Program-made: the position numbers and the translations under genes | Source of the DNA: Bolinopsis microptera | Taxonomy: Eukaryota > Ctenophora > Tentaculata > Lobata > Bolinopsidae | Direction: 5' to 3' | Assembly (NCBI RefSeq): GCF_026151205.1 | Contig: NC_087079.1 | Span: forward strand, 14,634,445-14,694,444 | DNA length: 60,000 nucleotides | In this document: positions 4,301 through 50,100 of the stretch, piece after piece | How the letters are laid out: each line of letters begins with the position of its first letter | Position numbering within the stretch: the stretch's first letter is position 1 | The notes under the pieces: generated by a model | Told to the model about the DNA's origin: nothing | What the model saw: only the letters and a program-made list of their open reading frames with translations | Database searches by the model: none

Positions 4301-4977
4301 ACTTTGCCATCATTTACAAAACTCGGCTTGTTGGTTGAAAACATGGGACGTATAAATTATGGTCCCTTTCTCCATGATTACAAAGGTATTGTTGGCGCAA
4401 TTAAACTGGGACAAGACGATGTTTCGAAAGGTGCTGATTGGAACATTTGGAGCTTACCATTGAACAACACCGAACTCGCTCAATTTGAAACAATAAAAAT
4501 ACAGCCAGGTAATTTGCATCAATTATTTAGTTTTTAAATTACTTCGTTCTTTCAAGAACACTAATGTTGGGGATGTTAAGTAGAATATATGATAAACAGG
4601 ACAGATTCTATTGACGTAAGTAATAAGTAAAGCTACCATTGACACTACTATACCTTATAGTAACGAAATATTCCTTATCATAACAAATATTTGCAGGACC
4701 TGGCAGCATACTGCGTGGAGAGTTCACAATACATGGAAAACCAGCTGACACATGGGTAAAAATGTCTAAATTTGGTAAAGGAGTCATATTCATCAATGGC
4801 AGGAATCTCGGCAGGTATTGGCCGATTAAGGGACCTCAGAAAAATCTTTACGTTCCGTCTGTCTTCCTGAACACCGGAATCAATGAAATGGTTTTACTTG
4901 AACTTGTACAGATGCCATCAGAGAAGGACCTGTACGTTGAGTTGGTCGGGTATCCTGATGTTGGGTCTTGTAATTAA
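1368..4977 (+). CDS. beta-galactosidase, GH35 family (GLB1-like)
   Basis: Three exons, 1368-2776, 4282-4508 and 4697-4977, join in phase (2, then 1) to about 638 residues, the usual length for animal GLB1/GLB1L proteins. A hydrophobic segment at residues 10-28 is a signal peptide or signal anchor. The (beta/alpha)8 catalytic domain follows, with FVSGSLHYFRVP, WNFHEPHPSQYNF, RPGPYICSEWD and GGTNFAF. The acid/base glutamate is Glu193 in VENEYG and the nucleophile is Glu275 in NSEFYPGW; their spacing matches the human enzyme. The last two exons encode the C-terminal beta-domains, ending FINGRNLGRYWP...GPQKNLYVP, a typical family ending. The enzyme removes terminal beta-galactose from glycans, in the lysosome or secreted. 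A cag acceptor lies just before the start codon, so a 5' UTR intron is likely. Which GLB1 paralogue it is cannot be told from sequence alone. Confidence 0.93.
2801..4094. mobile_element. Tc1/mariner-type foldback element in GLB1-like intron 1
   Basis: The element starts CAGGGTGGCCCATAAGTGAC and ends with its reverse complement, and is flanked by TA on both sides (2799-2800 and 4095-4096), the target duplication of the Tc1/mariner group. The inverted repeats are long, about 350 bp each, nearly matching from 2801 to about 3150 and from about 3740 to 4094. The centre encodes a minus-strand 112-residue frame (3390-3728) ending DFANTFL...EDEIWYSDKA, which resembles a stretch of mariner-type transposase around its second catalytic aspartate. 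It is too short to be active, so mobility would need an enzyme from elsewhere. Confidence 0.85.
3390..3728 (-). pseudogene. transposase remnant inside the mariner-type element
   Basis: An open frame of 112 residues lies between the two inverted repeats of the element at 2801-4094. The C-terminal RIDFANTFLSKQN..P.F..EIWYSDKA resembles the segment leading to the second catalytic Asp of mariner/IS630-type transposases. The first and third catalytic residues and the DNA-binding domain are not visible. The N-terminal part is not recognised. It is a decayed relic. Confidence 0.5.
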
Positions 4978-5890
4978 TTTTGAAATGTTTTTTACCGGAC
5001 TTAGCTCATCTTTATTTTATATTATTTTGAACTACTGTGCTAGATAATGATATGGATGAGTTGCCAAGATAATATTAGGCTTGTTTAATGCAGCCACATT
5101 GTATAATATCGGATTTATTGACCTTTAAAGGCAATACATATTATCATGAATAATTCCCTGTGTTAGAAAATCTAATAGAAATGGCTTATGAGTTGTGAAT
5201 GTGGTCGATTAAAATTGATCGATCTATGAAAGCTTGGCTGATTGAAAGTCAAATCCTCTGACTCTAGTCTCTCATCTCAGCATGTCTAGAAAACTAATTA
5301 TTATAAACCCGCGATATGGACTCCGCTCTCTTGTTAATTGAGGACGCCATATCATTTTAAACCACAAATTCTAGGGAATAAGACACATTAATTCAGAATG
5401 GTGAATTATACGTAATGCATGCCTTTCAAGTTTCAAGCATGTTTGAATTCTTATTCAAGATCAGAAGCTTTTAGAATTCTTCAGTTAATTTATTTTCAGT
5501 TTTTATAATTAAGTTCGACACTGTTCAAAAAAAACCTTACATCTAGTTAAACTTACATTGTTATCCATCTAGTTAAATGAGGTTAAGTCTTTATGTCAAT
5601 ATCCAATATTAACAGATTTTTATTTCACATTCATGTCCGATTGAAATGGACAGATGGACGTTGGCCTCTGGCCCATCCAGTTCTAAAATTTGTGACCGTT
5701 ATCTTTTTTATATCAAGACAGTGTGGAATTTCAGTTTTCAAACATAATTTTACGAATTGAGTTGATTGTATATTAAGATAAATCCACTACATGCTGCTTA
5801 TTTTTAGAGGAGTTACTGTTGTATTTTTGGTTCAGTTAATACTTTTCCATTTCATTAAGGCATCCAGTTGGATTGTATTTTTGTTTTGGT
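4978..5890. other. intergenic region between GLB1-like gene and alpha-spectrin
   Basis: This AT-rich stretch holds the 3' UTR of the beta-galactosidase gene and presumably the promoter of alpha-spectrin. I see no clear TATA box, no perfect AATAAA close to the stop, and no repeat. Confidence 0.4.
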
Positions 5891-5938
5891 TCTAGAATGA
5901 TTACGGCTTGGTTCCAGCGAATCTCCTTCAAAATGCTT
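5890..5938 (+). promoter_or_regulatory. candidate 5' UTR exon of alpha-spectrin with upstream ATG
   Basis: A strong donor, ATGCTT|gtaagt, sits at 5938/5939, and the first coding exon is preceded by an acceptor (ttatag at 6000-6005). Joining them places a short upstream ORF (ATG CTT GAT GGC TGA, four codons) that overlaps the spectrin ATG in another frame. The 5' end of this exon is not visible. The splice is inferred from consensus sites only. Confidence 0.45.
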
Positions 5939-6006
5939 GTAAGTTGTACTTTATCTCGAGTGTGATGATTTAAATATTACTCGTACGCTAACATTACTGT
6001 TATAGG

Positions 6007-8104
6007 ATGGCTGAAGACAGTGAAGGTCTTCAACCTGACGCGTTAAATGCCATCAGAGATGATGTGCTAGGCAAATGGGGTGACTTGCAGGTAATACATC
6101 ATTTCTAATAGTTTCATCAAATTATATTATATATATCCTCAAAACAGCACTTACTCTACTCTTTTTAAATATTTCATTCGCCACACTGCACCTGTTTTGT
6201 TGACCTAATCGTCAACAAAACAGTTCTAACCCCGTTCTATCCTAGGATGCAGTATCTGGAAAACAGTTCTAACCCCGTTCTATCCTAGGATGCAGTATCT
6301 GGCAACAGTTCTAACCCCGTTCTATCCTAGGATGCAGTATCTGGTAAACAGTTCTAACCCCGTTCTATCCTAGGATGCAGTATCTGGCAACAGTTCTAAC
6401 CCCGTTCTATCCTAGGATGCAGTATCTGGAAAACAGTTCTAACCCCGTTCTATCCTAGGATGCAGTATCTGGCAAACAGTTCCAACCCCGTTCTATCCTA
6501 GGATGCAGTATCTGGCAATAGTTCTAACCCCGTTCTATCCTAGGATGCAGTATCTGGTAAACAGTTCTAACCCCGTTCTATCCTAGGATGCAGTATCTGG
6601 TAAACAGTTCTAACCCGTTCTATCCTAGGATGCAGTATCTGGAAAACAGTTCTAACCCCGTTCTATCCTAGGATGCAGTATCTGGTAAACAGTTCTAACC
6701 CCGTTCTATCCTAGGATGCAGTATCTGGTAAACAGTTCTAACCCCGTTCTATCCTAGGATGCAGTATCTGGTAAACAGTTCTAACCCCGTTCTATCCTAG
6801 GATGCAGTATCTGGCAAGAAGAAGGATCTTCTGGGACAGCTGCATTTCCACAAGCTTGTAAAGGATATCAACGAGATAGTGATATGGATAACTGAGATGC
6901 TTCAGATAGCAAACGATGAGTGCTATAAAGATACCAGCAATTTGAAGGGGAAGAAGAAACAGCATAACACTCTTATTGACCAAATAGACATGAAGAAGGT
7001 AATTTTATACTATAATTTATTTTAAACTATACCAGCTACATGTTTTGAAGACAGTAACACAACTATTTTAGAAGAGACAATATTATTTCTTTGTACATAT
7101 CCACGCTTAAATAAAGAATTTTGTCGCATAAAATACACCTGGTTAAGATAACTGAACAAATAACCAAATGCCAGGATATCGTAAAGAAGCTTTTGAACGA
7201 AGATACTGAAGAAGGGGTAAAATATTCGTGTGCCTATTTCGTAACCATCATTAAAATTCCTCATCTTGATTTATGTTCGGCAGCTTAAGCTGGTTGTGCT
7301 ATCAATCATTAAATCCAAAAGCTTTACATGTGTCATTAAATTGGTGTTTTTGGGATATTTCGCTGATTACGCATAGAATTCCGAAATCGATTTTGGTATC
7401 AAAGCGACTATTGATTTAAATAAAATCCTAACTATCAAGCCAAATTCCTTCTTCTCCCATAGTAATACATAAAAACACCTCCCTCATCATAACCCGACAC
7501 CAATATTAATATTGACCCCACTAAACCCCACCTTTTAACCCCACTTGACTCCACTTTCTCCCCAGGGTACAGTAAACACGTGTTGTAACACTGGAGATGA
7601 GTATGTGAGCGACCAGAACAAGAACTTTGAGGTTATCGAGGGAAAGGTAGACGAGCTCAAGAAACTGTGGGACGAGCTGAATAGTGCCATGGAGAAAAGG
7701 GGCCGTCTTATTGAGGTAGGTTAACCGTTAAGGGAGATTTTCTCCTAAATTTACTTTAATTTAACTGAAATTTTGATCCTGTGAGGGGTGCAGGTGGTGA
7801 GTTATTGTTGTTCATATTAATTATCATATTATTGATTATCAATATTGTTTTTGTTCAAATATTCCCTATTAGGGATAGAATTCTCTTTAAAATAATACTG
7901 TGATCCACTGTTCCATCCAATAAACCCGTGTTATGCAGGAAGCTCTGAAGTATGTGACATTCATGAGGGACGTGAAGGAGATCGGAAGATGGGTGGATGA
8001 GAACGAGAAGTATTGTGAAGCTACCGAACTGGGGGATGATCTGGAGCAAAACGAGGCGCTGTGTGAAGAGTTTGAGACTTTCATGGTGTCTCTCACCGAT
8101 ACTG
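6007..8104 (+). CDS. alpha-spectrin N-terminal exons 1-5
   Basis: Exon 1 encodes MAEDSEGLQPDALNAIRDD and ends GKWGDLQ; with exon 2 (DAVSGKKKDLLGQLHFHKLVKDI) it forms the lone helix and first full repeat. In alpha-spectrins the lone N-terminal helix pairs with the C-terminal partial repeat of beta-spectrin to make tetramers. Exon 3 is only 42 nt (DIVKKLLNEDTEEG). Exon 4 contains VDELKKLWDELNSAMEKRG, a typical helix A with its conserved Trp. The start is the first ATG after an acceptor, and no upstream in-frame exon was seen. Confidence 0.9.
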
Positions 8105-11100: not shown

Positions 11101-14100
11101 TTATTAATTATTATATTGTGATTATTGGTTAGTTGTTTAATAACGATCTAGTTTTTCTAAAGAATGGTTATTTTTAGAATTTGAACACAATTGGAAATAG
11201 AACAGCATAGAGTTTTAACAATTCAAAAATGTCATTTCTTTACAGTTTTTTTGAAGCGTTATTATATTATAAAAGTATAAAGTATTATACTTAATATTTT
11301 AAATTAAAAAAAGTCCAGTACAAAATGAGAGTGGACTATAAAATATGCTGGAGATCTATATATACATGCTTCTTAATTCGTAACAAGTTCACAAGTCTAA
11401 TCTAATCTGATCAATTCTAAATTGTTCACTGTTCATTATCGATTGGTAGGTCTAAGCAGAATAAATTCACAGTTCCTGCTCTCTTCAAGTCTCAGGATTC
11501 AAATTACTGCTCTCTCGCTATTCCTTCATTTCCTAATTCCTTCAGCTGTATTAATGATTCATGTACAGATCATCATCCTGGATGACTGAATCACGTGGAG
11601 GTAAAGCAGGTCTAGCACTACAGGGACAATCAGGACACATGCACTTTCTACCACTCAGCTGTACGGTGCCACCACAAGGTTCAGGAGAGTAACTCAGCTT
11701 CAAGTTGGAGACGTTCCTTGATTTTATCTTGAACCAAATAACTAGTGATAGTATCAGTACTATAACCAAGAGTGTGAGTATCAGGCTCGTTACTGACAGA
11801 ATATCTATGCTGCTTGACTTTTGACACATTGTTTTGTCCTTGGATGGTGACGTTTCTTCTGGACATCTAACGCAATCTGCCCCGTTTCCAATGTGAAAAT
11901 CTGGGCATTGGATACAAGCATAACCTTCCCAAGAATGTCCACTTGGGCAGGAATGACACTTTGTAGATTTTGATGACGAAACTGTGAAGAGTGGGCACAT
12001 CGTGCAGGAGTCAGAGTAGTCTTTGCTGTAGTGGTTTTCAGGACATTCTTCACACGTGTTCGAATAGGCATTCCAAAAGGTACCTGCTCGACATCCACAA
12101 ACACCAACTTCAGACTTTTCTTTGTCACAATCTACACAATGCTCGCCATCCCAAGATAATCCTAGTGCACAGAGGCATCCTTCGGAGAGATAAAAGGAGG
12201 TTGCATCTGGTGGACATTGTGTACAAATACCTTTAAGTTTGTGTTTATAGAAGTTGGCTGGACAGGGACTGCAAGTCCCTTTTGTGTCAGAGGTCCAAAA
12301 CCAGCCATGACCTTTTTGGCAGCTGCACCCTTTTCCATGATCAAGTGGAAAGGAGTCTCCTTGGCAAGGAACACATCTATCGGAATCCATACCTCCTTCT
12401 CTGCTTACAGTTCCCTTCTCACATTTCTCACATTTATCAAGTCCTGCAGTCATATACGTACCTCCAATACAGGTGCAGTGAAATGACCCCACCGAGGAAG
12501 AAGAATTTACTGGGCAGGGGAGGCACACCATGTTAACGTTTGGAGCTGGACTGTAAGTCGAAGATGGGCATTTTTCACACATGTTATCCTGTCGAACTTT
12601 ATATCCAGCTGGACACTCAGAAATCATTGGCGAAGAACACGACAGCCATACATCTTCGCTATGGTTATCCTCCGATGTAACCATGTCAAACGAGCATGAA
12701 GGCAATATATCTGTATACGTACTGGTTGAACACACCAAGTTATCAACCTTTATGGGAAGGTTATTTTGAAAATTAGCTTCGAGACCATGACTCCAGTTAA
12801 CTAATGTTCCATACCCCATTAATAGGCATATCCAGTTTGCGGTGAAGTCATTAAATCCGTCATCGCAAACTGTTCCTCCTTGGTACATCAGTAGTCCGTG
12901 TCCACTTTGTGTAAACGTCTCGGTGAACTTATCAAGAAGGTAGAAAGAGTTTAGGTCTCCTCTTTGTATTCTTCTTTTGCAGCTCAACCAGACATCTTGA
13001 TAATGACTACAATCGTGGTATGTAAGATAACTACACAGTGGTACCACTCTACCGGAACACTGTACTTCGTCCAGTTTTATCGGGCAGTTCTTCTGCCAGG
13101 TGTATTTCTCTCCATGATTCCAATGGGCAAAACGTGACTTGTATCCCATCATGCGACAAATCCACATCGCTGTCACAACATTGAAGGCACCGTTACAAAC
13201 AGTACCCCCATTGAACATGAGAACACCGTTTCCACTCGTAGTGACTTGTTGGTTAGCATCCAGCAGATAGAAACGGCCAGCCCAAACTCCTGTAAGATGA
13301 TTTATTTAGTGCAGTGATATAATATGGTGATAGCATTATTACTGATAACGATGCCTATGTCCCGGGAGAATCAGTAGAGGTTTTCAAATGAACGTAGGTG
13401 TAAGTAATTTCAATTCTAACGTTATTATAATAAAAACCCACGTTACCTTGCAAAGAGAGCATTACGAAGACTGCAAACAAAATCATCGCTTCAAAATTGA
13501 ACTCACAAAATATGTTTTATGAATCACCGACTCGGTGCGATTGCTCCACTCAAAACTCGAAAATTCAATTTTCGAGTTTAGCCAGAATATTCGATCATGA
13601 TTTCGGAGAGTCTTATTTAATTTTATGCCATCCGCGACACATATAAATAAGATTTAGAAATTAGAGTAGTTAATACAATCATAGCATTTTATCGGAGAGT
13701 AAGCATACAACTCCATACATAAATAGCTAATAATATGGACAAAAGGCTTATTTAAACCCAAAAAAATCTATAAATCCGATGGGGTCAATTTTACAGCTCA
13801 ATTTTTCCAAAATATCTACACAGCTTAGCAGGAGTATCATATTTCATGACCTCAGATTGCGATTTGTTTGTAGCAATTCCACGATCTTAAGAGGGGGGTT
13901 CACCCTGATTTTTTTGTAAAACTTGGTTTCGAGACCAACAAACTAGGACCAGTGACCAAATTTTTGAGGGGGTCCCGGACCCCAACCGCCAAACGGTGCC
14001 CGCGGGGCAGCCACGCCCATATTTGGTCGAAATCAGGCCCAATTTAGCCAAATACCCTGAACATGACCAAAACCCAGATTTTAGGTGCTTTACTTGTAGC

Positions 14101-32100: not shown

Positions 32101-35100
32101 ATTCCATCCCTAATTTCAAACTTTGTTGACATAGCGGAATTTTGGCATGAGGCCGAGAGCTGAGGTGACGAGGTCTTAATCTGCAAATTTCTAAGCCACA
32201 ATATCACAAGATCTCTTATTATTATTATAATCACAGCTCTAGAGCTATGGAGTTGAGGGTGAAGATCTTTTGTCCAGGTTATAATTGTGATGATACAGCA
32301 CAATACACTTGAACAATAAACAAAGCTCTGGAACCAATCTAAATCAATTTTGTGGTCAGTCATTTCATACAATCTACCAATGTCATTCTTGCCGAGTTCA
32401 AGTGTTGTGTTTGGTTGGCTGATTCGTTCTAATCGTATCTAATGAGATGTTGATCGAGAGGTGTTAATTTCTATTATATCGTTTGTCACAGCGTGTCATG
32501 GATTAGTTCGGGTCCACGAGGTATTAATACTGAATAATTCAAGAGACAGCGGTTACGAATAAAGCAAGGGTCTGACGTTTAGTCATTCAATTTTGTTGAT
32601 GGGCGTCAGGCGTCCCAACTTGTTTAATTATATTCAGCTGTACATCTGTCTATGGTCCGTAAAATTATAGACCAGCTGTATGCAGTCCCCTTACTCTAGC
32701 TTATTATGATTATGTTATATCCCTCTGGGATTCTCCTGAGAGAGGAAAACTATCCTTAATTACAGAGTCATACTACAGTGGGATATGAGGTCCTTGTTAG
32801 GATCTAAATTTAGTAGCTCTATACGTTTTTATGATACAATAATTTACCTTGGCTGCTGAGTGCTGAGGGCGAGCACGAAACGAAGCCAAGGTATTATTTC
32901 ATTATTATTTTTTCCGTTTCTGATTTGAAGATGTGTTATGTGATACGTGCGCATGATACAATATAGTGTGTAATATATAGTGCGCCACTGGTTACTTACT
33001 TTAGGTAGGATCAGCAGGGATCGCTTCTCGACAACAGTATCAAGTACGCCCTCCAATCACTCCTGGCTTAGATCTTTTTGTAGAGTCCATTCCAGAAGAG
33101 AGTTATTTGTGATGGCGGTATACCCTTTTGTGGGCGGGGTCCGGGTATCCGGGAAGCCTTTCAAGAATTTAGCAAGAGAGGATTTGAAAGTTTCCAAGAC
33201 TTGGATTGTGTTAACTTCCTACTTAGGGAGCAGGTTCCACTGTTATTTGTTTTGAAACTTCCCGCCAGCCAGTCTGAGGTGACTCGCAGTCTGTCCTCAT
33301 AATACTCTGGCAACCCTGGCTTGCGTGAAATTATCGGTTACCAGTGTCCACGACTTTTCGGGAAATAATTCCCGGAAAATATTATAATTATTTAACTACT
33401 ATCGAAAGTGGAACTCTCCATCGAAATTCTCAGTCTCACTTTAATATTCTAGAGAATCTCGTCACCTCAGTTTTGTATCAGTTTCACCGACCGTTTTCAC
33501 ATTTCTTTACTTTTGTTCTATTTCAAAAAGCTCAAAACTTCATGGCAAGCAAAAGTATCTCACTTCATGACTTCAGTTTGAATTGCTCATGTCTTTGTCG
33601 AATGTTAGATTGTTTTCGTTGCACTTTGTCTTTGATCTTAGCGTTGTACATCACCGAACTTTCACAGTGTGCACACGCACCCTTAGGAGCTTATTCGTTG
33701 ATTAGTGGATTAAAAACATGATGTATTTTAGTGGTATATTGATAGTTCATTAACAATAAAGCAATAACAGTACTAGTACTACACAACAATAATCTGTCTT
33801 TATAATTAAACATTCTCTCACTGCCTTGAACCAAAAGACTACATTGCTAAAGCATATTGTGCACGGTGGCTTACTGGGCGTGCCGCATGGCCTTCTCACC
33901 CACTTAGCATTTCTAAACAATTAATTATTATAAGGTATCCACCCTTGACCTCATGATATTACCCCTGATCATATCCCCGACTATAACACACCCGGCTGGC
34001 CCCCGTTACACATTACACACCCATTTATGGTTTACTTCAACACATTGCAATTGCTTGTTATAGTTCCTCACCGCCACCAGAACGTTGTCATGCAATTTAA
34101 GTTTGGTTTTATAAATAAATGCACGTTACCAGTCACGTGACGGTATGTGTGCGAACTGCGAATCCACGCGAGGTACTGGCCCGTTTGTTATTAAAATTAA
34201 TCTAAATGGTTTAATTGGAAATTTGCCAGTTTGAATCCTTTGTGTCTGAATCTAGAATTGTTGCTTGTGTATAAGCTGACTCAATTAATTTACTGCAGTG
34301 CCTATACTTCATTACAGTTAACAGTACCAATTGTTTTCATTTGTTTACAAATATTTTCCACTTTCATCTGCACCAGTTCGTCATACATATTATCTAAATT
34401 TGATTTTGTTACAATTGACAGAAGCTTTGTAAGCCGAAAATAAAAGTCTCGTTATCAATAAGGAGGACACTATAATTAATGGAAGAGTTAAATGGTACCA
34501 GCACGGAAATAAAACCAAATCATGGCTCGTCAAAGAAACCAACCTACAAACTAGACGTAACATTTGAAACCATCATGTTGTACCTCCCCTACAACTGCAC
34601 CCTTGGATGCCTGGTACTCCTTCTCTACAGCTTCATCATCTCCTTCTACTTTAAACAGTTCAAACAGTTCGTGCCCTGCATGTACCTCTTGCTCGCACTC
34701 TTCGACTGTCTGACAGTGGTTTTCATGATAGCATCCGACATCATGGTCTCCACATTTGTCGGGGATCCAGCCAGCCATTTCTTGGATTATAAGTGGTATT
34801 TTGTTGTGATAGTGATGCTGGAAAGATGGGCTTTAAGGATGTCGATATTTATCAACATGCTGCTCTCAGTTGCTAGGACTCTTAAAACTGTGAGACCCTT
34901 TTATGAGATCAAGATGAAATTGGCACTGTTATCAATAATTTTGTATGCATTGTACTGGATCATTTTCGGATCGCTAGACGTTTTCGCGCTGACAGAAGAT
35001 ATTCCAAATTACAGACCGATAGAGGATGAAGAAAGGTTCGGGAAGTTCTTGCAGGATGGAAACATTGGAAAAGAAATAATACGTCTTGCAGACAGTAACA

Positions 35101-38100
35101 ATTCAGCCATCCTAAACTACTTTTTCGTTCACATCATACCTTTATTTTACCCATAACCATCTGCTCGGTCAGTGCTGTCACCATGATACACTTCCTCCGA
35201 AAGGAACCTCCCAACCAACAATCAGCTCAGGTTCAGCGCTACGTCTCCGTCACCATCCTCCTCATCACAATCTCCTTCGTCATCCTAACCAGTGTGTCTT
35301 CAGTGTACGACCTTGTCCTCAAGATCCTCTCCCAGATAAAGAAAGATCGAGGAGAGCCCCCGGTGAAGGGTGTTGGAGCTGACAGACATGTGTTTGGGAG
35401 CATAATCCCGCTTGTAAGCGCGCTGTGTAGCCCGGTTATTTTGATTAGTAGGAGTAAGGAGCTGAAAGGGAAGGTTGTTGCTCTGTTGAGGAAGTTAGGA
35501 TGTGTTAAGAGAGGAAGAAGGGCGAGAAATAGGGAGACTGTTAGTTCGACTAGTTAGAAATAGAGAGACTGTTAGTTCGACTAGTTAGAACTTTAGAAAT
35601 AGGGAGACTGTTAGTTCGACTAGTTAGAAATAGAGAGACTGTTAGTTCGACTAGTTAGAACTTTAGAAATAGGGAGACTGTTAGTTCGACTAGTTAGAAA
35701 TAGAGAGACTGTTAGTTCGACTAGTTAGAAATAGGGAGACTGTTAGTTCGACTAGTTAGGGCTGATCGTGTGGATATAAATTTGCCACGTGACCTCTTTA
35801 GATCGAGTTTGACATGCTTTTGTGTTTTGTAAACAAACACTGAAAGTTACATTATAGAGGAACATTAAATGATGATTTTGACTTTTGAGGATATTTAACT
35901 TATATATCTTTATTTAACTTTATTTAACTATATATAACTATATAACTTAACTTATATTACTTGACTTGTAAAATGTAACTTACTGAGACTGAGGGTGCAG
36001 CAAGTGCACAGGAGTAGGATCATATATTATTAAACCTTTAAAGAAACGGATATTATATACATATTATTACATATTATTAAATGAGCTGTTTATGAGTTTA
36101 TGGTATATATGACCTCTAAGACTAATAAGATTCGGACTTTCTGTTTAAATGTTTGCTTATATTTCATATTAATGTGAAGAGTATGAACAGTCTGTGAAAG
36201 CTATCTAACAAATCTCGTAAATGCGCAAATTTCGGGAATTTTACGTTTTAAAATCTTATTGTTTGATTTTTTACACATTCCAAAGCCCAATATACATTCC
36301 AAAGCCCAATATAGCATATCAAAACTCCCAAAATTTCATCATAAATCCTAACCTCATCATTCGTTTCTCTTCATAGTAATTACCTACTAAATATTAATCT
36401 CATGACAATTTCAGTCGTGGTGCAAAGAGATGTCCCCAATCTTCAACAATGAGGACTACGGTAAAGACGAGGATACGAGTAAGGGAATGTTGAGGAGAAC
36501 CCAGGCTCTCACTATCGAACTTCAGGGGCGAGCCACAAAGGTATTTGTGTTGTCACTCCGCATACATTTTATCTTTAATGTTATTTAGTTTAAGCTTTTA
36601 TGGATCCTAGAATTGATAGAAATGGTTACCTTAAAATGATAGAAATGATTACTTTTTCTTTCTTTTTAAAAACTGGAAAAGGAGAAATCTGAAACTCCCA
36701 GTTAAGGTTGTATGCAGGTTTAATTTTTAAGATTTTTCATGCGTATTCCTCAGGTAAAAGACTTGATAGATGAAGGTAACCGATGTAAGCAGAGGAACAT
36801 CATTCTTGGAAACGGAAAGAAGAAACCAAAAGTTCAGGCTCTGTACGATTACGCTGAGAAAAGCAACCGTGAGGTCAGAGCGATTTATAAATCATTAATT
36901 GTTTCTTTTTATCTCTTTAAAGATGATTCACGAATTTGTAAAAATCGCATCTTCACTTACAATAATGCTTAAAAATAATCTCAAATAATTTATCATTTTA
37001 AAGTTTGGACTCCAACTTTGTTAAAAATGTTTAAAATGTTTAAAATGTCCCAGATAAGTGTTAAGAAAGGCACAGTGATGATACTGCTACAATCTAAAGA
37101 CAAGGATTGGTGGAAGGTAGATCACAACGGTAGGATTGGATTTGTTCCGGCTGTCTACCTGAAAACCCTCCCTCCGGATGACGAGGTAAAATCAGATTTC
37201 AGCCGGAAATTCCCGGATTTTAATGTCGCACGGCTTTTTTAGTAGATAATCATGATATTATCATGTCTGATGTGGTGATCTTTTGTTTTAACTGCATGTT
37301 TTCTGAGCGAATGTTCCTTGCCCTATTGATTTGAATGTAATCTTATGTGACTGTAGTATAATTCTCAGCAGAGATATATTGAAAATAGTCTATTAGAATT
37401 GGACGCTCAGGTAAGAAAACTGGCAAGCCCACCGCAACTTATAATCGTGCTACATGTTACCCAAAAAAATGTTGCCGGCTATCAAAATTAGGTGCTTATA
37501 ATGTAGATGGTGCTATTTAATCTGCGTTCATTATAATAGTTCGGTAGAATTCTATCTTTGTTTTTTTTTCTTACAAAAACACTTCTCTGCTAACATTTGT
37601 GACTGTAAATACTTTATTTAGCTGCTGCTTATTTAACTTTTAAGCTCCTTACTCTTATCTCAGCCGCGCATTTCTTATTGTGATATTATGTTATAACATA
37701 ATATAAATACATCTTCTCATAATATGATAAATTGTTGCCGAACATTTTTGTGTAAATAAAACGTACGCTGCTAGTTGCTACCTTCATCAAAAACAATAGA
37801 CCGAGTTTATTATACTGGATTATATAATCTATAACAATTAATCAAGTATAATTATAAAATATTCAAAAATTATTTTAAGATGCGATAGTCCTGGCTACTG
37901 AAGTAGTAGCTTCTGCTCCTTTTACGTTACCTAGCAACCTGCAATAAACATGGTATTTCGTAACTAAGCACAAACCCTCCTTCCAGAACATACCTGGTCT
38001 AAACAGATAATTGTATAAAGGTATTAACCAATTAACCAATTAACATCCTGTCCGGTTGTAGATCCCTGCATCAGTAGCGGTCCCTGAGAAGTTGGGGGAG

Positions 38101-41100
38101 ATTAAGAGGAAGTACGATGAGGTGTGTACTGCGGCGGAGGACAGGAAGAAGAAACTGGTGGAAACAGTGGAGTATCACGTGCTCATGGGAGAGGTATTTA
38201 GAGTATTTACAGTATTCACACTTGTTTGAAGAATAATTATGTTCAGCTTGTGATACTATCATAATTATAGCTGAATAGCTCGGTTTTAGTGCTAAAGTTA
38301 TGTCGAGGTGATCCAAATCAACCGTCCGTAAACTCTCATACCTTCATTGGTCCTCCTTAGTTCAGTTCCTTTACATTCCACTACTAAATTCCGTAAATCC
38401 AACCCCCACAGGTTGGAGAAGTAGAAGGGTGGGTTACAGAACAAGAGAGAGACGTTACCCAGACCAGCATAGCAGAGGAGCTACCTTTCCTTCTACACCA
38501 GCTCAACAAACATAATGACTTTGAGCGGGAACTTACCGGGACTGAGCCTTTGTTAGCGGCGGTTAATGAGAAAGCAGCTACTTTGATAGAGAATGGTCAT
38601 AGCAAAGAGGTGAGGGTTTGGAAGATGTTTAGATTTATTAGAATTATTACTGTATTATAATGTTATGATAATCCTCGATTTCTAGAGACAGAAAAGGGTC
38701 TTTGAAGAATTGTATTTATCTGACCTTACTATTCTTTTTGTTATAGGTTTATGATATAGGTTTTAGTTATAGGTTTGTTGGTGGACTAACCAGTCTCTCT
38801 CCCTCTAGGCGGATATACAAAGCAGTGTAGATAACCTAGATAGACGATACGATAACCTGGTCAGACTGGCCGCCAGAAAGAAGAACCAACTGGAAGACAA
38901 GAAGAATTTGCTGACTTTCTTCAAGAATATCGACGAGTGTATTGATTGGATAGAGGAGAAGAAGAAGCCTCTTCTAGCTGGTATTTTATTATAGTTGGTT
39001 ATTAATGCTAAACAGTTTTTGTAAAGCGGGACTGTTAGTGTAAAGTTTAGTTTTATCAACATGATTTATAGATTTTGTTGGATACCGGCTAATAACTGTA
39101 CTTAGTTTTATACAAATTCCAGGGTTATATATAATTAATTTCAACTTCAGCCGAGACGAACGGAGACCTGGAGCTAGTGAAGACAATGCAGCGGAACCAC
39201 ATGGGTGTGGTGCGGGAATTACAGGCTATCCACGGGAATGTGGACTCTCTGCACGAACTGGGAGACTCGCTAATTACAGATCAACCTGGAAATGAGAATG
39301 GAGTCCGGGAGAAGTTGAAGGATCTTGATGAGCAGTGGAGCGAGGTTTTTTATTTATTTCAGCAAGGATTTCAGAATTTTACTTTTTTTTTGTTTTAAAT
39401 ATTTGGTTGCCCTAAGATTAATGATTTGCAGTCCTGTTAAACCACCACTTCAACTCTAGATAAAACTCCGAAGATTATAAAATATCCCAAATATTCTGAA
39501 TATTTTACAACATTCCACTAGGTGGAGGAAGCGAACGAAGTGCACTCAGACTGGCTGAAGAAATGTGTAGAGTTAGCTGAATTTAAGAAGACGTTCGCTG
39601 ATCTGGAAGATAGTCTGGATGTGGTAAAGGGAGAAATAGAGGCCTCGTGTGATGATCAGGGGGAAGATGTTGGCAGTGTTGAGGCTCTAATTGCTTCTCA
39701 CAGGGTTAGTTTCTTAAACTAGAAACATATCTGAATAATAGTGGGTACTGGGGAAGGCTCTCAAAGAAACAAAACATCGATGAATTCTTATTTCTTTCAA
39801 TCTGGATTCTGGAATAATCTGAAATGAAAGATCTGCTTAACCTGGAAATTGATTGTTCTCCACTGATATTATATTGATATTATATTGATTAAAATAAAAT
39901 TCAGTATAATATAGCAGTAATAATATGATGATATTGATGTGTAATAACAGGAGTACTATGAGGGTATAGAGGAGGAAAAAGAAGACATAGGGAGGTTCAA
40001 AGAACAAGGCAGACATCTGGTCAAAGTGGAGATCTGCGAACAAGAGGACGTAAGTTCTGGTTACATTAATAACACATTTTAAAGATGAAATTATTTAGCA
40101 AAAGAGTTAAATCGTGCAGCTTTTTGATGGAATGTTAGATGAATTCCTCTAGATCTGTGTGGTCGATTGTTTATCTCTGATTCTTTACTAACAATATTGC
40201 AGGTGGACGAGGATGTAGGTTTCCTAGAGGAGAAGTTAGAGCATGTAGAGATGATATGGAAGAAGAGAGAAGACGATCTGCAGAACGCGCTCGAGATAAA
40301 AGCGTGCGATCTTGACGAGAATTTCATTGAGGTTAGTGTAGCTAATAGTGACTTATTTTAATAAGTAGGATGTTGTTGCAAAAAAGAAATTGTACAAATC
40401 TGCGTCGCGTTATTGGTGGTGTCAGATGTTTCACAATAATCCCACTAGAATATCACACAAATAGACCAGTCCACCATCCTATTACCAACTAATAGTAATG
40501 GTGTTCAATCCAGGTGCGGATGGAGAATATGGCCGCCAACATGGACGAGATGACTGTTGCGGACTGTAAGAAGTTAGATCAGCTGCTAGGGGTGGAGGAG
40601 GAGAGGATCTCCAGAGTTCAGGTATTTTAGTTAGTTCAGGTATTTTAGTTAGTTCAGGTATTTTAGTTTGTTTAACACGTTTTTGAAGTTGTTATTGTTA
40701 TTTCTACACGTCTTTTAGTTAGCGTTTTAAATCTGTATTGACAAAAGAATGGAATGATAGACTTGTACTTGTTCAATGTCGGATATTTTAACACTTAAAA
40801 TTGCCTTTTTTTGATGAACGCATTGTCAACTATAAGATAGAGTAGAAGTTTCAAGAAAATTATGGTATGGACTAAAATACCGGATATCATAATATTATGC
40901 CATTTTTAATTATATTTAACACCAACAAATCTCCAGGCAGTGAAAGAGCGGATATCCTCTTCTCAAGCAGATCTACTACAAACTGATGGAATGAGCAGCA
41001 AGTTCGCCGGTCTGAAGAAACTACAGGAGGAGAAGAAGAAGGATCTACAAGATAAGATATCAGTTGACAACTTCCTGAGTGATTCAGATGAGGTTATACT

Positions 41101-44100
41101 GTGGATAAACGAAAGGTTGGAACAGTGTAATGTTAAACCAACCGAGCTGGGAAACTTACAGGTAATGTTAAACCAACCGAGCTGGGAAACTAACCTGGTA
41201 AAGTGTTAACAAGTACAGTTGACCAGTTTTATAAGTTTTATGATGATCTTAAATACGTAGCGTTCAGTTGGGAACATTGAAATATATATACAGGGGGGGG
41301 GGGGGGACAAAAGTCAGTATACAGTATACTAGATACATACACTAGATAAATATGTTTGGCTTATAATATAACACAACCATCTTTAATGTCTGAGACTTCC
41401 AACTTTGCAGAAGGTATATTATACTACTCAGTACTCAGTGAAGGATTGTTGTAGTTGTGTACTATAATGTGGTTGTGGTTACTGGTTGTGTACTATGATG
41501 TTATAGGAACCCTCTCAGGCTGAGATTCAGGACCACCAGACGTTTGAGACAGAGATAGGAGCATCTCAGGAGAGAGTGCAGGCTGTGGTGGGGGAGGGGA
41601 ACAGACTGTTGCAGGAGGAGAGGTGTGGAACTAGAGACGAACTGGTTAGTGCCGTCTAAATTGTTAATTACTTGGTTGTTAATGTCTTTGATATTGGTGT
41701 GATTTTTGGGTATCATAATAAATTTGATGTGAGGAATTGGAATTTCCAATTTAGATATTTTGGCAGCCCTCCTTCAGGATCCTGAAGTGTCTTTTTGTTT
41801 CATGATTGAATGTCATTTTGAGCACAGTTTTGTAACAGGTGATGGTTAAAGTGAACGAGATTGGTGACAAGTGGGACGAGCTTGCAATGCAAACTGAGAG
41901 GAAGTTATGTGTGCTGAAAGACGTGCGGACTCTACATCAGTTCAACTGTATCTGTCAAGACATGGTATGTGAAACTTATCCTAATTCCTGATATTCAAAT
42001 ATTTGAAACATTCCTGAAGTTCACATATTTAAGTACGTACTCACCAAATTATAGGCTATCAGATGTCAACAGATAGAACCGGAAGGAAGGAATGCACATG
42101 TTCCATTATTTTTGGATGGCTCGATATTTACATAGAATGTGGCGTTACTTGTAATATGACTACAGTTTATATGTGTAAACTGAGGCTCATTCAAACAAAG
42201 TTTAAAATTTTATTTGTGTATATATTTTATATATGTTATTGATCACTGACAGTCATAACATGACTAACATTAGTAACATTTGATGTATATATTATATTGT
42301 AAGATTGCGCATAAAGATATAGAACAGTGCAATATACAGTTGCGCTGCTCTCTAATATAATAGAGATAGCCAAATCGATGAACAGTGAAAATCGGAACGC
42401 CTAACATTAGTAATATAATATTTGATCTATTTATTGTAAGAGGTCATCATTTAACACTGTGTACTAACTGTAAGCGTGTATTAGTACTGCTCCTGAGTCC
42501 TGCACAGAGTCAACAGATCATTAATCTGAGCTACAATCTACACTTAAATCACTTTCAGGCTATGTGGCTGAGCATGATTGAGACTCAACTCAACATTGAG
42601 ATCAACCTTAAAGACATGGCAAACTTGCAGAACTTGATCAAGAAAAACCAGGTATTTTTAGATCACAACCTTTCAAGATTCTCAGTTTCATTTTAAATGC
42701 AGCTCAGCGTGGTACAAATATTCCCAAACATTTGTGATTCAACTTATCATTGTCGCTACTTTCAGTTAGAACTATTCTAAAACTAAACATTTAATCAGAT
42801 GTTAGGACATGATATACAGTCACATGAGCGACATGCTCTTGATATAAACGTGATGGCAGAGGAGATGTTGTCTAATGAACATTATGATAGTGAACATATT
42901 GGTCACAAACAGGTATGAACGGTATGACGTTATGAAAACATGGTCGTACACCACTTTGTAAAACAAAATTGCTTCCTTTTCCGAAATACAGACCTTCGGG
43001 ACCTCAAACAAAGCCTAAATAATAAAGATTGAAGAATGTTGTAATATTTATAAACTTCAGAGTTTTAGTAGATAAAGTGTGTGAGTAGCGTGTGATGTGT
43101 GATATTAAACATTTGCTGTGAGTATGATCTGATTGAACTTGCATGCAAACTATATGCACATTTCTAATGACTGATCGAACTTGTTTTCGCCTAAATATAG
43201 CATTTTGTGAAATCAATTACATGCTTACTTACTTAACTGTGCCTGGCCGCTCAAAATATATTCCTAGACTCCTTGGTGCAGTAAATGTTTTCCAGTCCTA
43301 AGGAAACGACTTTTGGTTAACAATTTCGTTGTCAGTGGCTGATTAATAGGCAATTAGCTACTTAAATAGTTGGATCAAAATTAAGGGAGAATTGTCCGAA
43401 CCAATCGGCGAAGAGATTAACAATACAAACAATTCAGGCGACACATAATTGTTTTGGCGCGCAAATTTGATAGTTTAATGGATCATGTATGGAAGGCGCA
43501 GTGACATTTTATCTGTATGTTTTATTTGACGTGATATGAATACGCGCGCGTGTGCGCGTTTAATTTGATTCGGCCAATTTTGAGCCGAATTGGCTTCGTC
43601 CCAAATTTACAGCCTGTCTGAATCTTGCCTCTTGGGAATAGTGAAATATATTCTAGTCAAATAGTCAGTGGATCACGTTGTGTCACAAATTCGATGACTA
43701 GAGTGTAATGTCAAATGATACCCTTTTATTTCGCAGAACCAAATCAACTCACGTTACGAAGATGTCAAAGTTTTACAAGATCGGAGACATGAACATCTAC
43801 AATATTGCCAACAGGTATTAACTCAAAATTATCTAATAACTAATATGCGAATGATCGAGATTTTCACTATCACGGGAGAACCCGCTCAGTAGAATAATGT
43901 GACAACATGTTCTACAACAACATCTCTCAGATAAACACAGTTATAAGAGAGATAAATGAGAGAGAGGTTTGGGTGGATGACAGATTGCGGTTCCTGCACT
44001 TGGCCACAGCACCTCGTGATCTTGTCGCTACTGATACTCTCAAGAAGAAACTAGCTAGATTGGAGGCTGAGGTCAGTAGGTCTTTTTTTATTCCTATTGT

Positions 44101-47100
44101 CGATATTATATCTGATTGCTTTTATTCGTTTGCTATTTATATTGAGATTTTCGTATCATTTTATTGCTGGTAAATTTATAAAACGTCACCCATTTATTTT
44201 ATTTCAATCATCAAATTTAAAATATTTCAGATAATAATGTACGAAGATTCCATTCAACAAACTAGTATAATGTGCGAGAAGTGTAGGCACGGTAATGATG
44301 ATATTACCTTGGTTAAAGAGATGGCCACGCTTATGGATAGTCTTCTTGCAAAGTAAGTCATTTGTGTGGAGGCGTGTAAGGTGTAGAGCATGATTTACTA
44401 CACCTTTACTACACCTTTACTTTAATCTGAACTTGAGAGATATGTTGGGTGTTGGCTAGTATACAACTCAAAGTGAGACGAGGCTATGCATACTTAACTC
44501 ATTATAGAAATCAATACTACTGGCAGATGAAATCCGAGTAAGATACGATAACCTTCAAGTTTTATAAATTAACAAAATGTCCTCTATGATGCAACTATTT
44601 TAAAGGTGGGAGGGGCTAAAGCGGGACTGTGAAGAGAAACACGACAAAGTTGACCAAACCAGAGCTTTCTTCTCCTGGCTCCTAGACGTTGGCGAGGAGA
44701 AGGCCTGGGTCAATGAGAAGATTAAATCTCTGAACCTGGACGGTACCAGGGACAATCTGCCTGCTGTTAACAGACTCCTCAAGAAGTGAGTATTTAGTTC
44801 TGGGGCGCAAGTTTTTAATTATCTGGGGTTTTTTTTTCGACTAATAAAAGTCATTTAATTAATAATATATAGTCACTAAAACATTGTGAATGGTGAACAT
44901 TGTATTTAACTTGTGAGTTTCTAACAGTGTTCCCAATGTACAGGTATGATCTGTTAGAGCGAGAGTTAGAGACACACAACCAACACATTGACACTGTCAT
45001 AATGGCAGCTGGCAATGCTATCAATGAGTCCAGAACTACACACTCTATCGAGGTAAACGAACTTAAACTTTGAAATCTCAAACCTTCGAAATTATTATTT
45101 ATTCGAGGTTTCATTATTTATATTTATCATCTTCCTCTCAACAATTTCGAGCACAGTTTGTATCCTTGCCCGCTACTAACCCTATTACCTGCAGGTACAG
45201 TTTGTATCCTTGTCCGCTACTAACCCTATTAGTAGCGGACAGTTTGTATCCTTGTCCGCTACTAACCCTATTACCTGCAGGTACAGTTTGTATCCTTGTC
45301 CGCTACTAACCCTATTACCTGCAGGTACAGTTTGTATCCTTGTCCGCTACTAACCCTATTACCTGCAGGTACAGTTTGTATCCTTGTCCGCTACTAACCC
45401 TATTACCTGCAGGTACAGTTTGTATCCTTGCCCGCTACTAACCCTATTACCTGCAGGTACAGTTTGTATCCTTGTCCGCTACTAACCCTATTAGTAGCGG
45501 ACAGTTTGTATCCTTGTCCGCTACTAACCCTATTACCTGCAGGTACAGTTTGTATCCTTGTCCGCTACTAACCCTATTACCTGCAGGTACAGTTTGTATC
45601 CTTGTCCGCTACTAACCCTATTACCTGCAGGTACAGTTTGTATCCTTGTCCGCTACTAACCCTATTACCTGCAGGTACAGTTTGTATCCTTGTCCGCTAC
45701 TAACCCTATTACCTGCAGGTACAGTTTGTATCCTTGCCCGCTACTAACCCTATTACCTGCAGGTACAGTTTGTATCCTTGTCCGCTACTAACCCTATTAG
45801 TAGCGGACAGTTTGTATCCTTGTCCGCTACTAACCCTATTACCTGCAGGTACAGTTTGTATCCTTGTCCGCTACTAACCCTATTACCTGCAGGTACAGTT
45901 TGTATCCTTGTCCGCTACTAACCCTATTACCTGCAGGTACAGTTTGTATCCTTGTCCGCTACTAACCCTATTACCTGCAGGTACAGTTTGTATCCTTGTC
46001 CGCTACTAACCCTATTACCTGCAGGTACAGTTTGTATCCTTGTCCGCTACTAACCCTATTACCTGCAGGTACAGTTTGTATCCTTGCCCGCTACTAACCA
46101 TATTACCTGCAGATACAGTTTGTATCCTTGCCCGCTACTAACCCTATTACCTGCAGGTACAGTTTGTATCCTTGTCCGCTACTAACCCTATTACCTGCAG
46201 GTACAGTTTGTATCCTTGCCCGCTACTAACCCTATTACCTGCAGGTACAGTTTGTATCCTTGCCCGCTACTAACCCTATTACCTGCAGGTACAGTTTGTA
46301 TCCTTGCCCGCTACTAACCCTATTACCTGCAGGTACAGTTTGTATCCTTGTCCGCTACTAACCCTATTACCTGCAGGTAGACGAACACATGCAGGAACTG
46401 AAAGATAGTGTCGGAGTGTTATACAACATTTGTGCTGCTCACAAGGCCTGCCTTACTGACGAGGCTGCCCATCTTAACTTTAACTGGAAGGTAATGCCCA
46501 TCTTAACTTTAACTGGAAGGTAATGCCCATCTTAACTTTAACTGGAAGGTATGATCCTCTAACCAATTCTTTGGTTTGCATGCAATATATTTCCACTTGA
46601 AAGCACAGAGGGTCGCAACTGTGTAATATACAATGGGAGCGCTATAATTTCAAATGCGAATCAGCTAATCATAATTTTCCAGGCTGAGGCGATAGAAGTG
46701 TTTATAACACAGAAAGAACGACATGTTCTAACCGAGGATGTAGGGTCTGACTTGACCTCGTGTGAAGTGCTCATATCACGACACAACAACTACACAACTT
46801 CTCTCAACTCCTTCAAAGACAATATAGACTCCCTCACCTCCCTCAAGGACCGGCTAATTGCATCACAACATGCTCAAACTAAAGCACTGAAACAGCGTCA
46901 TGCTGACGTGTTGAAGCGGTGGAATGCCCTCTTTGCAGAGAGTGAGGCTCGGAGAAAGCGACTGAACACTGCTCTGGCTCACTTCAAGGAGATTGAAGGG
47001 ATATTCCAGGTAACTCCTCACAGATTGTAAGGTAGAATCCAGAACACGTGACAACACACGTGACAAATGACACAGTGTGTTCGGGCCCTAAAGTTAGAAT

Positions 47101-50100
47101 CCAGTTGTAAACTTACAAATTCCAAATACACTTTCTCAACCACTTCCTAACCCTTTAACTCCGCAGACGTTTGCTGAGAAAGCAAGCCAGTTCAATGGTT
47201 GGTATGAGAACGCAGAGGAGGATCTAACAGACCTGATTTACACAAGCAACATGGACGAGTGTAAGAAGTTAAGAGTGGAACACACTGCCTTCGTTGAAGC
47301 ACTATCTCACGAGAAGCGGGAGGAGTTTAGAAACCTCACTGAGATCGACCGTACTATTAGGTTGGAGTTTATTTTTAGAAATTGGCTCTACTAATCTACT
47401 AATCTACTATCATTATGTAATATTTACCCCTTATTAATTGTTTTCAATACCTGTATAAATTTAAACAGCTATAATAAATTCGGGTGACTTAATATCGATC
47501 TTAGAGTCAAACGTAGATCTATAGTTTTTGTCCTTTTGGTTGTCCTTCGAGTTAGAAGATCAATAACCAGACAACGAATGAGTTTTAAAAAGTCTTGTGA
47601 ACATTAGGCTGTATCAAAAAACACAAACATGATCCAATAATTGATGCACCTTCAAAAAAGTTGCATTAGGTCATTGTGAGTTTGGAAAAAAAAATTTAGA
47701 GTTCAACTCCAACCTTATACGGTGGTATTTTTCGTTTCCATGGTAACCACTCTGTCGCGGTCGCGTTTACTGAATTAAATTCATATCTGGAGAACCATAC
47801 CACTTAGAGAACTGTGTTATAGCTTAAAAGAACCGGAATAGCCAAGTTTATATTCAACTTATCAATCAACTATATGCCTAGAACCTTTATTTTTTGACTT
47901 AAAGGCAAAAAGGTGGTTTTGACTGCGTTGCTATGGTGATTGCGTTGAATTTTTGTATTTTATTCCATTATTTTATACATAAAAGGAAGCAATAAACAAT
48001 GTTGTAACAAAAAGGCAATATAATATAATAAATAGATATACTTTAGTCAAACACAAACAAAAAATGAGAATAATTACAATACAATGTTGTAATTTAATTT
48101 ACTTATTGTGGCTTTTGTACACCTCTCTGTACTAGTGGCAGCAGCTTTCTGCTGCCTACGCATGTGCTGAACCACCTGGAGAAGAGCTTGTCGCTGTGTC
48201 TCGTCCTTAGTGACACTCCCGGTGTTGAACTCAGTGAGAACACCAAGAGCCCGTTCAGCACAGTCGTTGACAACAGTAGTGGCTAGAACCATTGCCTTGA
48301 GTGTCCTAAAGTTAGTGTTTGTCTCCCAACTGCTGACTGGTTCACAGAGAAAAGTTGGCTCCACTCCGTATAGTTCAAAGAATGTGAATGAATCAGGACC
48401 CACAAACTCCTTCAGTTTCCGTTTGTTAAACCGGTCAGTGAGGGGCTGTTGCTGCTGCTTCATCCTGGGCTGAGACCTGTGACGAAGAGTTTGCTGGGCC
48501 ATCCCACGTTTCTCTGTATCACTCAGATGACTCGAGAAAAACGCGAGAGGCACCAGTCTTTCGCTCAAATACCACAGGTGCCCAGCTGACATCTTCTTCT
48601 TACTGGCTTCAACCAGCTCTTTGAACGTGCTAGTAACATTACTAGCCAGTGCTGTTTCGAACAGTGTCATAAGAGCTAGGTCCTGTGCTGGAGCATCAGC
48701 AGCACTTGTGCAGCACAGCCAGTACTGCACGTAAAAAAGTGCGAGGTACAGTGTACACCCCCAGTTCTTCCATCAAGTCGAGGCAGTATTCTTCGAATAT
48801 ATCGGTTAACTGTTTTCGAAATAGGGTTATCTTCATAGTATAAATCATGCCTGCCATCCACCTGGCATGGTGGGTGGCACCAGGTGCCCTGAACTTAATT
48901 CCGTCAGGTAGTGTTCCCCCAAGCAGAAGCAGGGCTAATTCTGCGAGTTCACGATAATCGTGCCGCAGAGTGCAGCACGAATCTTCGTCCTTCAAAAAAT
49001 CCGCAAGGAATGATATGGTGGAAGCCTGCAGTCCCTTCAAGAACCTCCCAGAAATGTTCGGCAGGGAATAGTCGCAGGTATTGATGCATTCCCATACACT
49101 GCAGAAAGCCTTGTAGCAGCTCTCATCTGGAGATGTGGTGTCACCATACACCACTGAGCAGGCAGCACCTCCCCAGATCTCTGAAACATGATGCCGACAG
49201 GCAAATTGTAGCAGAGATCTGTTGAGGTGCTCCTCCAGCCGAACGGCCACACCCTTGTGTATTCCTGAATTTACGCTTGTCGTGTCGAAAACAAGACCAT
49301 TTATTAAGGACGTGTTAATCCCTCTGTCCTTTAGCATGCTGATGACCTCTTGTAGCACTGCATCAGATGATCCCTGTGAATGTGAATGTTAATGTGAATG
49401 TGAATGTGAATGTGAATGTGAATGTGAATGTGAATGTGAATGTGAATGTGAATGTGAATGTGAATGTGAATGTGAATGTGAATGTGAATGTGAACGTGAA
49501 TGTGAATGTAAATGCGAATGTAAACGTGAATGTGACTGTGAATTCATACATTTGCTATCTTGGGAACACCAAGAAGTATCTCAGTTGTAGCTCCTACCAA
49601 AAGCACTGCAACTCTCTCTTCAGGCACTCCCTGTCTTCGATCATCTTTGGATCTGTCGAAGCCTCTAACTTTGCCTCATGGGCTGGACTGACGGCCCAGA
49701 ATGTTTTCTTCAAAAAATCCTGGAAATCTGATCTTTTCTTCACATAACTTTCAGTGCCTTTCTTTCGCTGCTTCATCAAAATAGTCCACCTTGAATTCAT
49801 CTCTAAAACCATTTCGCGGATACGGTAGGGAGTCTTGGACATGATGTTTGTTTTCAGCCACCAGTCTGTAACTAAACGAGCCACATCATCAGCCACAGAC
49901 GTCTTGGTCACCACTCCGTGATTGTTTGTCTGGGCAACCAGATGCTGGAAAAAAGACCGTTACAAACTATGCGATTTATATTTAAAATGTCCACAAAAAA
50001 GATTTCTAAAATTGAAATTTAAAATTCATCGAATAAATATGTTAAGACCCACCATGCTTCTAAACTTTATGAACACCTCTTCATTTGTGGGGGGCTTCGA

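Follow-up and report, generated by a model that had tools for sequence, protein, structure and literature searches.

An intron of the alpha-spectrin gene of the ctenophore Bolinopsis microptera carries 28 tandem units built from its own 3′ splice junction. The units were found in a window of 60,000 bp (contig NC_087079.1 of assembly GCF_026151205.1, positions 14,634,445 to 14,694,444 of the forward strand; GC content 39.0%), to which the coordinates below refer unless a sampled locus is named. Each array unit repeats the 3′ end of the intron (CTACTAAC...ACCTGCAG) together with the first bases of the next exon, and the array belongs to an already described class, the mirages of amphioxus. We consider it very probable that the array is a mirage by origin, that it is tolerated, and that the acceptor used is the one adjacent to the exon. 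What is surprising is the size of the array and the frequency of such boundary arrays in the B. microptera genome.

The host gene and the array-bearing intron

The initial annotation had assigned the host gene to alpha-spectrin, and this identity was confirmed, as the joined exons match PDB spectrin alpha and Pfam analysis of the predicted gene returned an SH3 domain and a Ca-insensitive EF hand. The gene spans approximately 6.0–53.1 kb of the window; once unsuitable predictions had been removed by hand, its model comprised 50 coding exons. Its N-terminus (query residues 8–84) matches residues 26–102 of PDB spectrin alpha 8iah_8, and the exons joined over the array-bearing intron (query residues 1–137) align to residues 1857–1994 of the same entry; for a longer joined piece near the array, the match to PDB spectrin alpha had an E-value of 1.9e-80. 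Judged from the aligned range, the 137 query residues and the PDB range 1857–1994 show a net difference of one residue, which is too small for a 44-nt pseudo-exon.

The intron itself (45053..46376, + strand; 1,324 bp, phase 0) has the donor GAG|GTAAAC, as read from the sequence and the gene model. It follows a predicted exon ending in SRTTHSIE (44944..45052, +), whose joined protein matches PDB spectrin alpha, and precedes an exon encoding VDEHMQELKD...FNWK (46377..46490, +; gene model and protein match), the first codon of which, GTA, is the GTA that closes the array. The initial annotation numbered this intron 42, whereas in the gene model it separates coding exon 41 from coding exon 42, the model being approximate: the joined predicted spectrin coding sequence loses frame after ~520 residues, so that exon count and numbering are approximate as well.

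The exons were predicted with a gene finder written for this analysis, which was trained in two rounds; exons had to reach a set minimum length, and introns shorter than 40 were disallowed. The final model still put pseudo-exons inside the array; these were taken out by hand, as were the other predicted exons that were not spectrin-like (before 6005, at 12173–12759, 34536–35539 and 48182–48907, and at 18861 and 27672). Exons in a TCC-rich stretch of one sampled locus (L021) were also removed, and this removal took out introns of 47, 55, 66 and 74 nt with them.

Other reading frames were seen in and around the gene. The two predicted exons at 34536–35539 contain several hydrophobic stretches and perhaps belong to a receptor-like gene nested within an intron of spectrin; the first of the two had no Pfam match. 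On the minus strand at 48074–49388, in a large intron, open frames of 232 and 230 codons perhaps represent an old transposase, and the stretch 48696–49388 (minus strand) had no Pfam match. Upstream of spectrin, an exon of a glycosyl hydrolase of family 35 (beta-galactosidase) is located at 1461–2774.

Structure of the array

TRF delimited the minisatellite array to 45153..46379 (+), with 28.0 copies of period 44, and the array takes up most of the intron. The initial annotation had described about 28 copies of a 44-bp unit at 45137–46379; the copy number and the period stand, whereas the start is at 45153 and the individual units are 42–44 bp long. When the array was split at ACAGTTTGTATCC, the units were found in the order BCAAAABCAAAAABCAAAAAADBABBBE, comprising 16 A, 7 B, 3 C, 1 D and 1 E, in which E, the final unit, is the same as type A until the exon, into which it runs. 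Each full unit carries a branch-site-like sequence, an acceptor and the first exon bases. The element CTACTAAC is present in all 28 units, and the junction ACCTGCAG|GT, i.e. AG|GT, in the 24 units of types A, B and E; ACAG comes directly after the GT in the 23 internal AG|GT units, whereas in the last one the GT is part of the exon.

The remaining units have lost the dual site. In unit D (46071..46114, +) the junction reads CAG|AT. In the three C units, each of 42 bp (45197..45238, 45459..45500 and 45765..45806, all +), unit splitting and an inverted-arm search revealed an inverted copy of TGTCCGCTACTAA in place of the acceptor, the inverted arms being 13 bp long and perfect with a loop of 5 nt. 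Folding of the hairpin, in a piece that contains 12 of the 13 pairs, gave −18 kcal/mol with a z-score of −6.95, and none of 200 shuffles was as good. The statement that every junction reads as acceptor and donor at once thus holds for 24 of the 28 units and fails for D and the three C units, the latter being the three acceptor-less copies that had been recognized from the start. The blocks BCA4, BCA5 and BCA6 follow one another directly and form a higher-order repeat, which, as seen in one assembly, suggests turnover of copy number.

Comparison of the units with the adjoining exon revealed what the unit copies. Full units end in ...CAG|GT followed by A, and the exon begins GTAGAC, with GTA (Val) as its first codon. 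The final unit reads ...ACCTGCAG|GTAGACGAACAC, the unit boundary coinciding with the start of the exon. The repeat unit therefore crosses the acceptor and spans the exon–intron boundary, as a mirage does, with an exon share of only 2–3 nt, and the dual AG|GT look of the junctions is due to the fact that the exon starts with a GTA codon. A genome search with a 22-nt core of the unit, allowing up to three mismatches, gave at least 27 matches, of which 25 were in the array and two were single degenerate ones elsewhere; the reversed core, used as a control in the same search, gave none.

The reading frame singles out the last acceptor. When the 25 ACCTGCAG acceptors were read into the exon, the frame was open from the last one only, and all 24 upstream acceptors led to a stop 15–52 codons past the upstream exon; functional mRNA therefore requires that the final splice be made to the last acceptor. 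The earlier suggestion that every copy splices correctly cannot be maintained, as each of the 24 upstream acceptors gives a premature stop if it is the final site. The exon-proximal copy also gave the best fit to the conserved protein in all four cases compared with solved proteins, namely both spectrin arrays at 3′ splice sites and two sampled dynein loci (L029 and L030).

Boundary arrays in the spectrin gene and in other genes

A sister array of 14 units of 42–43 bp was found by TRF, unit splitting and protein match at another alpha-spectrin 3′ splice site (6218..6814, +). Its units read CCTAG|GATGCAGTATCTGG and include ~14 nt of exon (DAVSG), and the array ends in that exon. The acceptor of this array is without AG|GT, and the protein read from its last acceptor gives a gapless match to PDB spectrin alpha. 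TRF and the gene model placed further arrays of the same gene at 5′ splice sites, all on the + strand: 3.2 copies of an 18-bp unit with the junction TTCAG|GTATTT (40615..40672), two exon-tail copies of ~35 bp (41122..41191), and three copies of a 29-bp unit made up of the exon tail and GTAATG (46466..46551), which sit at the 3′ end of the exon directly after the 28-copy array.

Each of the two long arrays has a palindrome of its own over the acceptor. Palindromes of at least 10 bp straddled the acceptor in three of 187 cases, two of which are the two long arrays (TACCTGCAGGTA and ATCCTAGGAT, the latter a 10-bp palindrome over the acceptor of the sister array; hypergeometric probability 1.7e-4, post hoc), and none was seen by eye in the other two 3′ arrays. 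The acceptor palindromes are only a lead on how such arrays start. Pairing of neighbouring palindromic junctions in the RNA as a means of hiding the inner sites was considered and rejected, since the last copy has an identical palindrome.

We then counted boundary arrays across three sources. With doubtful rows dropped, 11 were found among 264 predicted introns: five in spectrin (49 predicted introns), four in dynein genes (138) and two in a fixed-position sample (77). Four are at 3′ and seven at 5′ splice sites, so that both boundaries are represented, as in mirages. The fixed-position sample consisted of 18 stretches of 10 kb on nine contigs. The dynein sample covered a subset of the multi-exon loci for dynein heavy chains, picked by Pfam with repeats ignored, with 10 kb taken at each of ten places. 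The rows dropped as unreliable were at window position 35525 (the end of a nested ORF) and, in the sampled loci, L002 (a repetitive gene), L003 at 3901, L004 at 6699, L012 at 9644, L021 at 3044–4973 (TCC-rich), L026 at 3365, L028 at 2568 (weak) and L030 at 3562 (a single copy).

The best case outside spectrin, a dynein array (L030, 5795–6561), contains ~12 near-identical copies of ~62–65 bp in the intron after the copied exon, each combining the exon tail ...MTLPDFGLIIE with the donor GAG|GTTAGT and the first part of the intron, with some copies varying. The protein read via the first donor gave a gapless alignment to 8glv_Fm (an AAA+ chain), and axonemal dynein heavy chains were among the next matches. 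At a dynein 3′ splice site (L029, 1883–1984), a 51-bp unit is present twice and the last copy fits the homology (VENGMK to VENSMK); the upstream acceptor also leaves the frame open and was the one picked by the gene finder. The two arrays of the fixed-position sample are in a glyoxalase-family gene (L003) and a tubulin-like gene (L004). As a separate observation, a predicted dynein intron of L026 contains a reading frame that encodes an RNase H domain (PF00075), with the same 26-bp minisatellite (AACCCAAAGTCTCTAATCTCTACAAT, in rotation) on either side of it, at 3365–3821 and 5002–7234; this may be a retroelement that either carries tandem repeats or lies between them. In addition, a genome search with PF10613 (glutamate-receptor ligand-binding domain) returned 32 matches, many of them in long single ORFs, with small clusters on two contigs. 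The best PDB match of one glutamate-receptor domain (L020) was ML032222a, where ML denotes Mnemiopsis leidyi, and that of another (L019) was to delta-1 receptor chains.

The frequency of local copies at junctions was compared with that in exons and introns using 20-nt segments centred on the junction, a copy being scored when at least 17 of 20 positions matched within 400 nt. In spectrin and dynein, copies were obtained for 9 of 371 junctions, 5 of 3265 exon-interior segments and 833 of 8276 intron-interior segments. Junctions were thus above exon interiors (Fisher p = 1.4e-6) and below intron interiors (p = 2.9e-8), with both p values being rough because the segments step by 10 nt and overlap. 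This test needs ~10 matching exon bases and misses the 28-copy array and the array at 41122, and its nine positives include two doubtful rows (L026, and L030 at 3562). Copies are thus not concentrated at junctions, which merely tolerate them better than exons do: tandem duplication is common in introns, nearly absent in exon bodies (spectrin, dynein) and partly tolerated over junctions. The same contrast failed in the fixed-position sample (junctions 10/154, exons 225/2869, introns 291/5435), in which the models run through repeats and are considered unreliable.

Origin of the array and alternative explanations

The mirage reading implies a simple course of events. A tandem duplication of a segment straddling the 3′ end of the intron and the start of the exon would have come first. 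Growth may then have proceeded by slippage or unequal exchange and by duplication of the higher-order blocks BCA4, BCA5 and BCA6, and the hairpin unit C was probably made once, by a template switch, and copied thereafter. Exon definition is expected to favour the exon-adjacent splice site, and the spliceosome would normally take the copy next to the exon, i.e. the last acceptor of a 3′ array or the first donor of a 5′ array. The extra copies would then merely fill the intron and serve no function themselves. Among the possibilities raised in the initial annotation, a by-product of slippage that selection tolerates is the best-supported alternative, boundary-straddling arrays recurring in spectrin and in other genes. 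The likelihoods that we give to this origin and to the explanations below can overlap, as a mirage origin is compatible with the use of inner sites.

That the inner CAG|GTACAG sites serve first as acceptor and then as donor, in stepwise removal of the intron or in re-splicing of mistakes, is unlikely. Acceptor and donor are juxtaposed at AG/GT in 24 of the 28 units, 23 of them internal, as in a ratchet point, and the donor half is weak: CAG|GTACAG ranks at the 23rd percentile among predicted donors, which is within the range of real ones, and only ~5% of the 2858 GTs in the gene region reach such a score. The acceptor half is good, at the 79th percentile. AG|GT is present in three of the four arrays at 3′ splice sites (p = 0.096 versus 59/187), and human UBC provides a precedent for spliced tandem dual-specific sites (PMC10809524). 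Against recursive use, however, GT at the start of an exon is common, making up the first two bases of 59 among the 187 predicted exons and of 17 among the 49 in spectrin (with the array exon counted), and 33 of these 59 starts equal or exceed CAG|GTACAG in donor score; moreover, the sister array persists without AG|GT. A step of 44 nt is shorter than all of the predicted introns kept (n = 187), of which the shortest are 62 and then 97 nt, the shortest in an earlier round-one model of the window and the fixed-position sample having been 73. Finally, one fly study describes recursive splicing as apparently confined to very long introns, in which almost every segment exceeds 1 kb (PMC6110457), whereas the present intron is 1.3 kb long with sites spaced by 44 bp. 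On these grounds, and because the GT is that of the first codon of the exon, the recursive ratchet put forward in the initial annotation finds no support as the cause of the array.

An unlikely extension of dual-site use is that the array corrects itself, wrong inner acceptors regenerating donors that would be re-spliced in multiples of 44 nt until the exon-adjacent acceptor is reached; the intron could in this way tolerate dozens of identical acceptors. If so, AG|GT would help boundary repeats to spread, compared with repeats that lack it, and introns of ctenophores would have grown repeatedly by this route.

A regulatory role, in which splicing factors are titrated by decoy acceptors and branch sites of the inner units or in which poison inclusions tune spectrin via nonsense-mediated decay, is very unlikely. 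The premature stops from all 24 upstream acceptors would suit it, as would the yeast-like CTACTAAC, which is in every unit and was found in the last 70 nt of none of the 186 other predicted introns. However, a mutational process of a general kind is indicated by the arrays of unrelated sequence that occur at 5′ splice sites and in genes for dynein, and the array looks recently homogenized, with 16 identical A units. An assembly artefact, with an inflated copy number or a misplaced array, is more improbable still. Arrays of this type are hard to assemble, and the amphioxus authors thought the draft version of one to be misassembled (PMC3087553), but the ordered variants and the unequal blocks (BCA4, BCA5 and BCA6) appear unlike simple doubling, and the array abuts the exon exactly. 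The origin from a mobile or dispersed satellite that landed at the acceptor by chance is scarcely credible and was rejected on the genome search with the 22-nt core: although the genome is rich in minisatellites (period at least 10; 105 merged arrays covering 16,668 of 180,000 sampled bases in L001–L018), the core motif was in no other array among the at least 27 matches, and the exon's own first bases are inside the unit.

With mirage origin as the preferred reading, 28 junction copies beside the one that is needed amount to a natural test of exon definition versus AG scanning and of how faithfully a 3′ splice site is chosen. The occurrence of boundary arrays in a ctenophore, when the published mirages located were from lancelets, suggests independent origins, and in distant animals boundary minisatellites could make introns longer and perhaps give rise to additional ones.

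Comparison with known systems

Minisatellites at splice junctions have a human example in the gene 6-16/G1P3 (IFI6), in which the repeat provides several donors. Intron gain has been ascribed to tandem duplication with AGGT or across an intron–exon boundary, in the Rogers model and in potato RdRp (PMC4974935). As in those cases, a boundary-crossing duplication supplies splice signals, but here an existing intron was lengthened, with no sign of a new one. The ratchet points of Drosophila likewise have an acceptor and a donor juxtaposed around AG/GT; they differ in that fly segments are nearly all >1 kb in one study (PMC6110457), whereas the spectrin sites are 44 bp apart in a 1.3-kb intron with the GT derived from the exon.

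The initial annotation knew of no description of such an array, and two precedents are in print. Human UBC contains a tandem array of dual-specific AGGT sites that are stochastically used (PMC10809524), and, as with VCX3A, each AG|GT of its tandem units could act as both donor and acceptor. UBC units are coding and are spliced in variable numbers, whereas the spectrin units are intronic, contain stops and provide candidate sites only.

The closest likeness is to amphioxus. The name mirages comes from amphioxus Adh3, for tandem repeats spanning exon–intron boundaries; the globin mirages are reported at 3′ and 5′ boundaries, many with AG/GT, and are unstable in length with splicing apparently undisturbed (PMC3087553). 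Further mirage genes of amphioxus are Adh, TnC and PGBD5, as named in a second report (PMC3902484). Judged by titles and abstracts, none of the literature matches listed concerned mirages in ctenophores. The amphioxus cases (BflGb6, BflGb9, Adh3, troponin C and PGBD5) resemble the spectrin array in their minisatellite-like boundary copies and in the common presence of AG/GT. The B. microptera arrays differ from them in belonging to another phylum, in having up to 28 copies, higher-order blocks and a hairpin variant, and in being known from sequence alone.
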